Source: Gaiella occulta
GTDB lineage: Bacteria > Actinomycetota > Thermoleophilia > Gaiellales > Gaiellaceae
DNA: 64,000 bases
Assembly (NCBI RefSeq): GCF_003351045.1
Contig: NZ_QQZY01000006.1
Coordinates: forward strand, 124,001-188,000
Reading direction: 5' to 3'
In this document: positions 7,244 to 15,903 of the stretch, one piece after another
Layout: each line of letters opens with the position of its first letter
Position numbering within the stretch: the stretch's first letter is position 1
Made by a program: the position numbers and the translations under genes
The notes under the pieces: model-generated
Databases searched by the model: none
Told to the model about the DNA's origin: nothing
What the model saw: only the letters and a program-made list of their open reading frames with translations

Positions 7244-8319
7244 GCGGCGACGACGATCACCGGCGTGCCGATGCTCACCCGGGAGAAGAGCCACTCGGCC
7301 TGCGGGATCAGCATGCGGATGCACCCGTGCGAGGCCGAGTACCCGACGGAGGCGGCGTCGGGCGTGCCGTGGATGCCGACGTACGGGGCAGACAGGCCCA
7401 TCCAGCGTGTGCCGAGCGGGTTGCCGGGCCCGGGCGGGATCGGCTTCGCGTCCTTCGCCCAGTCCGATCCGACCGGCGGATACCACCATGGGTAACGCTG
7501 CTTGTCGATGACCTCGAAGCGGCCGAGCGGCGTCGGGTACTGCGCGAGCCCGGTCGCGACCTTGAAGGCGCGAATCAGCTTCGAGCGGCGCGCGACCTCG
7601 TAGAAGAAGAGCCGGTTGGAGCCGCGCCGGATCACGATCGCCCGGCCGAGGTCGTCGCTCGAGACGGCGGGGGCGATCTGCTCGAACGGCAGCGTCAGCG
7701 GGTCGCGCGCGTGCGTCTTCAGCGCCTTGACGATCTCCCGCGCCGCGATCAGCTCCTTGAGGCGCCGGCCGGGAACGTCCTTCGTCGCGAACGGAACGAG
7801 GTTGCGCAGCTTCAGCTCCGCATCGACGGGGTCGCGGCGGAACCGCGCGCCGAGCCGGGCGACGAACCGCTCCACGCGTGCGCGGTCGACGTCGACCTGA
7901 AGCGGCACGACGAAGCCGGGCCGCTTCACGCGCGCGGCGAGCGCGAGGGCCTCGTCCAGGCGCGCGGAGGCGCCGAGCCGTTGCGGCGCGATCGTGATGC
8001 GGGCCCCCGGGCCCGCGACGAGCGTGAGCGGGCGGGCGAACCGCTGCCGCAGGATCGCGCGTGCCTGCGCGGGCGCGAGGCCGCCGACGAGCGCTCCGCC
8101 CACGGTGACCCCGGCGGCGATCGTCTTCGGCTGGGCGACCGGCGGCGGCGCGGTGGTGGTCGCGCCGGTCGACGGGGCCGTCGTGACGGTGTCGGTCGTC
8201 GTGCCGCCGGTCGTCCCCTCGTCGGCCCCCGCGGCGGGCACGAGCGCGAGCAGCGCTGCGCACAGGAACCCCGCCGCCCCACTGGTCGAGAAGACGGCGA
8301 TCTTCAGCCCGCGGGTCAC
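7240..8319 (-). CDS. L,D-transpeptidase (YkuD) with PG-binding-like domain
   Basis: A 359-residue envelope protein. It has a short basic start, a signal-anchor helix (residues 7-32), a Thr/Pro-rich linker, a peptidoglycan-binding-like region, then the YkuD catalytic domain from about residue 230 (LGRAIVIRRGSNRLFFYE) with YVGIHGTPD and the catalytic ASHGCIRM (H331, C333). It makes 3-3 peptidoglycan cross-links or attaches proteins to peptidoglycan. The GTG start at 8319 is chosen because it overlaps the GDPD stop (GTGA) and gives a proper signal-anchor. Confidence 0.9.
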   Translation of the reverse strand: MTRGLKIAVFSTSGAAGFLCAALLALVPAAGADEGTTGGTTTDTVTTAPSTGATTTAPPPVAQPKTIAAGVTVGGALVGGLAPAQARAILRQRFARPLTLVAGPGARITIAPQRLGASARLDEALALAARVKRPGFVVPLQVDVDRARVERFVARLGARFRRDPVDAELKLRNLVPFATKDVPGRRLKELIAAREIVKALKTHARDPLTLPFEQIAPAVSSDDLGRAIVIRRGSNRLFFYEVARRSKLIRAFKVATGLAQYPTPLGRFEVIDKQRYPWWYPPVGSDWAKDAKPIPPGPGNPLGTRWMGLSAPYVGIHGTPDAASVGYSASHGCIRMLIPQAEWLFSRVSIGTPVIVVAA

Positions 8320-12080: not shown

Positions 12081-12444
12081 CGGCGCGAGCGGCCCCGGAG
12101 GCCGGCTCCGCCGGCCGGGAGGGGCCGCGCTCGGCGGGGTCAGGTTCCTGACGTCTCCGACGCGTCGCTGCGGCTGCGTCGGGAGGGGGAACAGTGCGAA
12201 AGCACGGGCCCCCGACCAGAGCGGCCGCAGCGGCGCGAGCGCCCCCGGAGGCCGGCTCCGCCGGCCGGGAGGGGCCGCGCTCGGCGGGGTCAGGTTCCTG
12301 ACGTCTCCGACGCGTCGCTGCGGCTGCGTCGGGAGGGGGAACAGTGCGAAAGCACGGGCCCCCGACCAGAGCGGCCGCAGCGGCGCGAGCGGCCCCGGAG
12401 GCCGGCTCCGCCGGCCGGGAGGGGCCGCGCTCGGCGGCGTCAGG
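12081..12444. repeat. 150-bp direct tandem repeat, about 2.4 copies, between pyk and divIC
   Basis: Units start at 12081, 12231 and 12381 (the third is partial and ends over the pyk stop codon). Units 1 and 2 differ at one position (12092 versus 12242). Each full unit holds a GC hairpin (GGCCGGC-TCC-GCCGGCC inside GGCCCC/GGGGCC), the palindrome GTCAGG-TT-CCTGAC and a CCGACGC/GCGTCGG pair. The 13-mer GGCGGGGTCAGGT in the unit (12133-12145) also occurs at the left edge of the RAYT element (2404-2416), so the repeats may be REP-like DNA. The 402-bp stretch around it has no gene. Confidence 0.9.
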
Positions 12445-13861
12445 CGATGTCGACCTTGATGACGTTCGTAGACCCGGGGATGTTGACCGCGGTGCCGGCG
12501 GTGATGACGACGCGGTCGCCGGCCGCGACGATGCCGCTCGTGCGGGCGGCGTCGAGCGAGCGCGTCCACAGGTCCTCGACGTCGTTGGTGACGGGGATCT
12601 CGAGTGGCGTCACACCCCACTCGAGCGCCATGTGGCGAAGGGAGTGGACGTGGTGGGTGATGGCGACGATGGGGCGGCGCGGGCGCAGGCGGGCGACGGC
12701 GGACGCCGTCTTGCCCGAGAACGTCGGGACGAGGATGGCAGTGGCGGCGAGTGCCTCGGCGATGTCGCAGGCGGCGTTGGACATGGCCTGGCCGATCGTC
12801 GGCTCGTCGTCGGCGTGCGGGATCTCGTGGCGGTAGCCGAGGCTCGGCTCGACGGCGCACGCGATCTGGCTCATCACCTGCACCGCCTCGGTCGGGAACT
12901 CGCCGACGGCGGTCTCGCCCGAGAGCATGACGGCGGAGGTGCCGTCGAGGACGGCGTTCGCGACATCGGACGCTTCGGCGCGCGTCGGCTCGGGCTGGTG
13001 GATCATCGACTCGAGCATCTGCGTGGCGGTGATGACGGGCTTCCCGCGCTCGAGCGCCCGCGCGATGATGCGCTTCTGCAGCAGCGGCACCTCGGCGGCG
13101 CCGATCTCGACGCCGAGGTCGCCGCGGGCGACCATGACGGCGTGGGACTCGGCGAGGATGTCGTCGAGGGAGGCGATCGCCTCGGCCTTCTCGATCTTGG
13201 CGATCACGTACGCGGAGGAGCCGCGCGCCTCGATCAGCGTCCGCAGCGCCTTCACGTCGGACGCGGAGCGCACGAAGGAGAGGGCGACGAAGTCGACGCC
13301 GAGCTCGAGGGCGAACTCGAGGTCGTCGAGGTCCTTGCGCGTGAGCGACGGGATGGGAAGCGGCACGCCCGGCAGGTTGACTCCCTTGTGGGAGGAGACG
13401 ACGCCGCCCGCCGTCACCTCGCAGCGGGCGCGGGCGCGCTCGACTCTCTGGACGCGCAGCTTCACGTGGCCGTCGTCGATGAGCACGTCGTTTCCGACCT
13501 GGAGCACGGATCCGAGCACGGCGGGGCTGACCGGCAGGTCGCCCTCGCGTGCGGCGTCCTCGCCGGCGATGACGACGGTGTCGCCACGCTCGAGCGTCAC
13601 CGGCTGCTCGAGGTCGCCGACGCGCAGCTTCGGGCCCTGCAGGTCGGCGATGAGCGCGATGGGGCGGCCCGAGGCGATCTCGGCGTCGCGGACGAGCTTC
13701 GCGCTGCGCGCGTGGTCGTCGTGGGAGCCGTGCGACATGTTGAGGCGGGCGCCGTCCATGCCGGCGGCGATGAGCGCGGCGATCATCTCCGGGCTCGAGG
13801 AGGCCGGGCCGATCGTCGCCACGATCTTCGTCCTGCGAATGTGCCCGGTCACGAGCGCCAC
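12440..13861 (-). CDS. pyk: Pyruvate kinase
   Basis: The 473-residue protein is a complete type II pyruvate kinase: RRTKIVATIGPASSS, ARLNMSHGSH, IADLQGPKLRVG, the K-active-site segment YVIAKIEKAEA, MVARGDLGVE, ITATQMLESM, SDVANAVLDG and SGETAVGEFP, then a C-terminal allosteric domain. It makes pyruvate and ATP from phosphoenolpyruvate. The GTG start at 13861 is 1 base from the enolase stop, so eno-pyk encode consecutive glycolytic steps in one operon. The stop codon lies in the partial third copy of the tandem repeat. Confidence 0.97.
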   Translation of the reverse strand: MALVTGHIRRTKIVATIGPASSSPEMIAALIAAGMDGARLNMSHGSHDDHARSAKLVRDAEIASGRPIALIADLQGPKLRVGDLEQPVTLERGDTVVIAGEDAAREGDLPVSPAVLGSVLQVGNDVLIDDGHVKLRVQRVERARARCEVTAGGVVSSHKGVNLPGVPLPIPSLTRKDLDDLEFALELGVDFVALSFVRSASDVKALRTLIEARGSSAYVIAKIEKAEAIASLDDILAESHAVMVARGDLGVEIGAAEVPLLQKRIIARALERGKPVITATQMLESMIHQPEPTRAEASDVANAVLDGTSAVMLSGETAVGEFPTEAVQVMSQIACAVEPSLGYRHEIPHADDEPTIGQAMSNAACDIAEALAATAILVPTFSGKTASAVARLRPRRPIVAITHHVHSLRHMALEWGVTPLEIPVTNDVEDLWTRSLDAARTSGIVAAGDRVVITAGTAVNIPGSTNVIKVDIA

Positions 13862-13862
13862 G

Positions 13863-15149
<1,287 letters not shown>

Positions 15150-15243: not shown

Positions 15244-15903
15244 TCAGGGCAGGCGCCAGAAGGGGCCGCCGAGGCCGAGCCGGTCGAGGATCGCCTGGTT
15301 CTGCTCGCGCGTATGCGGCCGCCACTCGGGAGGGAGTCGGTCGCTCCACCAGCCGTGCGCGAGCGCGCTCAGCGTCGTCACCGGGATCGTCGCTCCGGGC
15401 TCGCGCCCGTCGAGCCAACGTGCGATGTGCTCCTCCGACCGGAAGAGGTTCATCGTGCTTCACGTGAAGACGATGTCGTCCCACCAGCGAGCGGCGGGGA
15501 CGAGGACGTGGAAGAGCAGCGTCTCGTCGTGCGGACGCTGGTTGCGCACCTCCACGGTCACCGGCTCGCCGCAGTCGGGGCATGCCGTCTCGATGCGGCC
15601 GTCGACGTGGAGCGCTGCGCAGATCCCGAACGCGTCCCAGGCGCAGTTCGCAAACCACGAGCGGCCGTCCGCCTCGACGCGAAAGGCCGTCGGGACGGCC
15701 GAGAACGGATTGGCCATCAGGATCTCCGACGAGGCGGCGTCGAGGACGAGCGCGTGCTGGTCGTGCAGGCGCCGCCAGCCGGACAGGATCTCGTCGACCG
15801 AGACGCCGGCCTCCTGCGCGACGTCGGCGGCCGCCGGCGCGCGACCGCGCTCGACGAATAGACGGTAGGTCAGCGACCGCAGCTCGACGTCTCGCTCGTC
15901 CAC
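15244..15903 (-). CDS. MerB-like organomercurial lyase family protein, probable selenoprotein (in-frame TGA at codon 148)
   Basis: Read through the TGA at 15462-15460, this is one 219-residue protein. It has an N-terminal HTH-like region (residues 8-45), [26 protein letters not shown] with C87 and D90, TACPDCGEP, then [22 protein letters not shown] and a C-terminal domain ending [13 protein letters not shown]. MerB proteins cleave carbon-mercury bonds with a Cys-x-x-Asp plus a second Cys. C87/D90 match the first pair (C96/D99 in the plasmid R831b enzyme). The TGA replaces the Cys of the FTCSTM-type motif, 61 residues on (63 in MerB). Both sides of the TGA are family-like and in one frame. A SECIS-like hairpin follows. 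The start is GTG at 15903, with a weak ribosome binding site. Alternative: a nonsense-mutated pseudogene. Confidence 0.8.
15423..15455 (-). promoter_or_regulatory. SECIS-like stem-loop directly downstream of the in-frame TGA
   Basis: Read on the minus strand from four bases after the TGA: CGATG, internal loop AAC, CTCTTCC, loop GGTC, GGAGGAG, internal loop CA, CATCG. The upper stem has 7 pairs (one G-U) and the lower stem has 5 Watson-Crick pairs. The loop GGU falls 20-22 bases after the TGA, close to the GGU of the E. coli fdhF element (19-21). Bacterial SelB recognises such a hairpin, with a loop G-U, within the coding region. Confidence 0.72.

Follow-up and report, generated by a model that had tools for sequence, protein, structure and literature searches.

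When a gene of the MerB (organomercurial lyase) family carries a TGA within its reading frame, does that codon end a short protein, mark a decayed gene, or specify selenocysteine (Sec)? The question is raised by a minus-strand gene (15244-15903) in a 64,000-nucleotide stretch of the Gaiella occulta genome (contig NZ_QQZY01000006.1, positions 124,001 to 188,000; hereafter the window), which belongs to an assembly of 3.0 Mb that is 98% complete. An earlier interpretation of the DNA letters alone, referred to here as the sequence-only reading, had proposed that the gene is a candidate selenoprotein with the TGA in place of a catalytic cysteine (Cys). Every computational check suggested there gave a positive result. 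The gene encodes a selenoprotein, a conclusion that we regard as practically certain, and the recoding signal, the decoding machinery, the protein family and the position of Sec are established by computation. When function is added to recoding, the locus is very probably best explained as a MerB-fold selenoprotein with a recoded UGA and a predicted organometal lyase activity.

Translation agrees with the frame, the coordinates and the TGA position given in the sequence-only reading. The minus-strand frame runs from a GTG start at 15903 to a TGA stop at 15244-15246 and is interrupted by a single internal stop, the TGA at 15460-15462. Read-through of this codon yields a protein of 219 residues with Sec at position 148, whereas the standard code yields an open reading frame (ORF) of 147 amino acids. 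A genome-wide search identified the gene as the sole MerB match in the source genome. Both sides of the TGA had been ascribed to the organomercurial lyase family, and one Pfam MerB domain (PF03243; 100.8 bits against a gathering cut-off of 27, E 7e-29) indeed spans the codon, covering residues 67-185.

The residues C96, D99, C117 and C159 serve as a signature for recognising MerB (PMC8261052), and the mercury (Hg) ion is bound in MerB by Cys96, Asp99 and Cys159 (PMC4525700). In a profile alignment to 3f2g, the first three positions are retained in the window protein as Cys87 (15643-15645), Asp90 (15634-15636) and Cys108, which forms a CxxC motif with the nearby Cys111 (15571-15582; all on the minus strand). 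The place of Cys159 is held by Sec148, also in the alignment to 5c17, so the TGA falls in the column of the second catalytic Cys, as had been claimed. The predicted structure of the protein has an AlphaFold pLDDT (predicted local distance difference test) of 96.9, and the best 11 Foldseek matches in the PDB are all MerB or MerB2, the nearest solved fold being MerB2 5c17 (E 3e-11). The protein shares its fold and the C96-D99-C117 positions with MerB and MerB2 (1s6l, 3f0o, 5c17), although MerB2 has Ser at the D99 position, where the window protein has Asp, as in MerB. It differs from both in having Sec for Cys159, in an identity of about 18-23% and in an added C-terminal segment ending in FWxL. 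Its scores on the canonical MerB equivalog models NF009710 and NF033555 (38.9 and 35.9 bits) lie below the cut-offs of 193 and 200.

A stop codon at the Sec column is shared by the relatives. An order-wide protein search of 129 genomes gave 28 clear members, the window gene included, with 33-79% protein identity; each of the 28 has exactly one in-frame stop, a TGA in the same column. A scan of named genomes yielded 338 relatives with two peptide patterns, one of which contains the motif FRSEE and favours loci bearing a selenocysteine insertion sequence (SECIS); among the best 80, read codon by codon, every readable one has a stop at the Sec column. A profile search of 396 genomes in the phylum, which is free of this pattern bias, found TGA at the site in about 20 genomes and Cys in two, both of one family. 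Removal of duplicates left 99 distinct loci, of which 94 have TGA and five have TAG at the site; they represent at least four phyla (Actinomycetota, Chloroflexota, Acidobacteriota and Calditrichota) and also include unclassified bacteria. The alignment of homologues proposed in the sequence-only reading thus gives TGA in 27 relatives from the order and in other phyla, and Cys homologues exist.

These counts bear directly on the view that the UGA is a true stop, in which case the product would be a truncated protein of 147 residues, the gene a pseudogene, or the downstream half a second ORF initiated at an ATG three codons past the stop. The length of the standard-code ORF and the presence of this ATG in most members are compatible with such a view. 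However, the ATG is replaced by ATC or ATT in several members, in all 99 loci, which span several phyla, the stop occupies exactly the same conserved column, and both halves are under protein-level constraint. Moreover, the Cys forms read through the site, conservation of the downstream hairpin extends to synonymous sites, and TAG appears exactly where tRNA-Sec reads UAG, which makes a true stop very improbable.

The hairpin lies just beyond the TGA on the minus strand. The sequence-only reading had described a two-tier stem, of which the apical part, CUCUUCC-GGUC-GGAGGAG (15430-15447), folds as stated; the lower CGAUG/CAUCG tier, which extends the hairpin to 15423-15455, is present in the window sequence and absent from the conserved features of the relatives. 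The GGUC apical loop (15437-15440) is near-invariant in relatives and lies 20-23 nucleotides past the UGA, with its G-G-U at 20-22 nucleotides as originally noted. It resembles the loop of the E. coli fdhF SECIS, an element used here for illustration only. The fold energy of the apical hairpin in the window is -12.1 kcal/mol (z -2.0). Because this z value is modest and those of other members are weaker still, fold energy was set aside as proof of a SECIS.

The convincing SECIS signal is instead conservation across relatives. Standard pairs fill all five inner positions of the stem in 83 of 83 unique sequences, a few of which carry two-sided changes (U-A to C-G and C-G to U-A), and pairing falls to 0.44-0.63 when the partner strand is slid out of register. 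Covariation shuffles gave a paired fraction of 0.931 against a shuffled mean of 0.914, a weak difference since most pairs hardly vary, and for this reason a codon test was used in their place. In a codon alignment of 96 non-redundant genes, Leu at +5 is encoded by CTC (75/75), Arg at +7 by CGG (94/95) and Ser at +8 by TCG (96/96), whereas the same codons are used elsewhere in the same genes at frequencies of 0.49, 0.27 and 0.38, respectively. The strong freeze is confined to these three conserved columns (entropy deficits of 1.8-2.2 bits; 0.57 for the next column). The proposed hairpin is therefore conserved at the nucleotide level, as its frozen codons attest. One minus-strand gene, L179, has TGA at the site followed by an in-frame insertion, TMLQKSSIFCSEEH, and an 8-bp hairpin, GCAGAAGA/TCTTCTGC, instead of the usual GGUC hairpin; this arrangement could reflect either an error of assembly or another type of SECIS.

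The machinery needed to use such a signal is encoded in the source genome, where all four components that the sequence-only reading had listed for checking were found. SelA (C1:307217-308257; 436 bits) adjoins SelB (C1:308379; 329 bits), a tRNA-Sec with anticodon UCA lies about 3.4 kb beyond selA (C1:311646-311737), and SelD is encoded at C1:188930 (356 bits). SelA is found in 82 of the 129 genomes of the order and in 21 of the 28 carriers of the MerB-like gene. Its co-occurrence with the gene was dropped as uninformative evidence, given that 82 of 129 genomes have SelA anyway.

The five TAG genes provide a further, decisive test of recoding. They belong to Geodermatophilus saharensis, G. pulveris, Blastococcus saxobsidens, B. 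capsensis and Modestobacter excelsi, all Geodermatophilaceae, and each of these genomes has a match to the tRNA-Sec model (64-67 bits) with the anticodon CUA. Anticodons were read in seven genomes, namely these five and two with TGA genes: the source genome and Nocardioides zg-1230, which has tRNA-Sec(UCA) and whose gene is placed among the TAG genes in the tree. A stop codon that tracks the tRNA-Sec anticodon is very hard to explain except by Sec insertion. The TAG/CUA match in five genomes goes beyond the checks suggested earlier. The original study of UAG-encoded Sec reportedly verified this decoding with 75Se labelling or mass spectrometry. UAG is an established Sec codon in Geodermatophilaceae, for which formate dehydrogenase (FDH), UGSC-motif and AhpC selenoproteins were named (PMC5330540). 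The present genes share with these the bacterial family, tRNA-Sec(CUA) and a Sec-site codon that matches the anticodon, but no MerB-like protein is among those named. ARAGORN calls the CUA tRNA-Sec of the five genomes (L134-L138) tRNA-Pyl, owing to the anticodon; this label is likely a mis-annotation trap.

The same pattern speaks to two other accounts of the TGA, namely decoding by a near-cognate or suppressor tRNA for Trp, Cys or Arg, and sequencing error. Low-level read-through of UGA occurs in bacteria, and beyond this nothing positive favours near-cognate decoding. Against it, the change from TGA to TAG is confined to Geodermatophilaceae whose tRNA-Sec has the anticodon CUA, a SECIS and the full Sec machinery are present, and homologues have Cys at the aligned position. 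A sequencing error cannot recur in 99 loci. Together these accounts have a negligible probability, and both pseudogene and sequencing error were rejected on the stop codon at one column in 99 loci and the pairing of TAG with CUA.

With Sec insertion accepted, the question becomes what the protein does. SelB and Sec-tRNA-Sec(UCA) would recode the UGA at 15460-15462, steered by the GGUC-loop hairpin four codons downstream, and Sec148 would thereby stand where MerB has its catalytic Cys159. The protein is predicted, with somewhat better than even confidence, to be a MerB-type lyase of Hg or another soft-metal organyl. It would split the bond between carbon and metal in organomercurials or similar organometals, with the metal gripped by Cys87 and the Sec148 selenolate and the carbon protonated by Asp90; the freed metal ion may then be handed to thiols or to MerA encoded elsewhere in the genome, which could accept Hg(II). 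The MerA in question scores over its curated cut-off and has an N-terminal NmerA-type CxxC domain and a C-terminal CC pair. A selenolate at position 159 would be deprotonated at neutral pH and a stronger Hg ligand; it should therefore favour capture and C-Hg protonolysis and could slow release.

Several points weigh against this combined account of recoding and lysis. In MerB, the thiol at the Cys159 position can be the first to leave during Hg release (PMC4525700), so Sec at this site could slow turnover. No SelA is seen in seven of the 28 mostly incomplete carrier genomes, among them G071 with 91% completeness. Among genomes with TGA genes, the anticodon comparison covers two. The gene also stands alone, outside any mer operon, and no neighbour conserved across phyla was found.

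The surroundings of the gene were examined as a guide to its function. Its neighbours are enolase, cupin and MarR genes with no mer operon around it, and mer genes are likewise not conserved beside the gene in its relatives. Downstream on the minus strand lie an apparent enolase gene (13863-15149) and a pyruvate kinase gene (12440-13861), both judged from their sequences. When the ORFs of 80 loci were clustered, the only groups were those of the gene itself, of shadow ORFs and of genes shared locally, with no neighbour conserved across phyla, and Pfam analysis of selected neighbours gave nothing consistent. The attempt to derive function from neighbourhood was consequently abandoned. At one acidobacterial locus (L116), the Sec MerB gene is followed, at a distance of about 800 bases, by that of a MerR-family regulator with Cys residues near its C-terminus (7442-7837; PF09278, 66 bits), accompanied by small membrane proteins; the locus is possibly a metal-responsive cluster.

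The absence of a mer operon is also an argument for a selenoprotein that is not a lyase, in which the MerB fold would serve to bind or sense soft metals or electrophiles, or would have a redox function. Such a protein might form a selenosulfide between Sec148 and Cys87 or hold a metal without cleaving a carbon-metal bond. The additional CxxC at 108-111 is in keeping with this idea, as are the absence of MerA from half of MerB-bearing genomes and the binding of other metals by MerB variants (PMC8261052). A related subfamily fused to signalling and ATPase domains points the same way. Its long-branched members L183 (minus strand), L184 (1477-2650) and L185 have an in-frame TGA at both catalytic Cys columns, the first within GL-U-GMEALAVRW, and a fused AAA+ ATPase domain; the GGUC hairpin follows the second TGA, and SelA is found in all three genomes. 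Their relative L039 (1501-2700), from a genome in the window's own family, retains Cys at the first catalytic position and has TGA at the second, and a domain of the class III nucleotidyl cyclases (PF00211, 40.6 bits) follows its MerB-like domain; the fusion is possibly an organometal sensor. Nevertheless, Asp90 is absent from these fusion proteins, which make up a long-branched subfamily of their own. The window protein retains the complete MerB catalytic set (C/D/C/U), in which Asp90 would be needless for a pure binder, and MerA is encoded in the same genome. A non-lyase is accordingly the less favoured reading and rather unlikely, as is its selenosulfide or metal-holding variant, and a predicted organometal lyase remains our preference.

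The sequence-only reading knew of no described selenoprotein MerB, and on this point it must be corrected. SaoL, a MerB-like selenoprotein of the SAO system that is described as an organometallic lyase and has the motif Cys-Sec, appears in prokaryotic selenoprotein lists (NF040728; Haft and Gwadz, 2023, as cited in PMC13188914), and "Organic mercuric lyase MerB2" and "Alkylmercury lyase MerB-like" are among predicted bacterial selenoproteins (PMC7435645; PMC9312934). The representative in the later list, WP_238493467.1, bears the name SaoL. Compared by listed names only, these entries and the window protein are alike in being predicted selenoproteins of the MerB family. SaoL and the window protein are both MerB homologues and selenoproteins, and soft-metal organyl chemistry is proposed for SaoL. 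However, the window protein scores 54.9-55.1 bits on NF040728, for which the cut-off is 140. The SaoL motif is listed as Cys-Sec, whereas the residue preceding Sec in the present clade is Thr, Asn, Ser or Ala, and none of the 99 loci has a Cys codon before the Sec codon. The title of the paper on SaoL places it in Clostridioides difficile and relatives; the present clade occurs in Actinomycetota, Chloroflexota, Acidobacteriota and Calditrichota from soils and sediments. The flanks showed neither an SAO operon encoding other selenoproteins nor a conserved partner gene, the SAO models not having been run on the genome. Filing the window protein as SaoL was thus rejected on its profile score (about 55 against 140) and the missing motif. 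By anatomy the protein is of the MerB/SaoL type, yet it belongs to a separate, widespread clade set apart by profile score and listed motif. Some of its members may already be covered by the earlier listed MerB2 prediction.

In common bacteria of soil and sediment, the finding puts selenium chemistry at the residue that grips the metal in an enzyme family that degrades methylmercury. The clade is invisible to standard annotation, because gene callers end the protein at the Sec codon, and a gene truncated in this way escapes surveys in which Cys is required at position 159 (such as PMC8261052). The pool of potential organomercury degraders may therefore be underestimated. A broader picture, to which we give an even chance, is that of a widespread, Sec-dependent organometal lyase clade of soil and sediment that annotation has missed, whose Sec codon follows changes in the anticodon and whose AAA+ and cyclase side branch, with one or two Sec at the catalytic pair, acts as an organometal or electrophile sensor. 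The switch from TGA to TAG in Geodermatophilaceae offers a natural recoding test in cultured strains.

Exchange between Sec and Cys has also occurred within the clade. The Sec clade is supported in the tree (100/97) and contains two separate Cys lineages, one formed by L174 and L175 and the other by the proteobacterial plasmid genes L193 and L194. L174 and L175, from the same phylum as the window, have lost both the FRSEE motif and the hairpin. SelA is still present in their genomes, so the machinery was kept when Cys and Sec were exchanged. The natural Sec and Cys forms permit a direct test of the benefit of Sec in C-Hg cleavage. In the Cys forms on Paraburkholderia and Sphingomonas plasmids (L193:4001-4648 and L194:4001-4645), C-x-W-C replaces C-x-W-D, such that Cys substitutes for the catalytic Asp.
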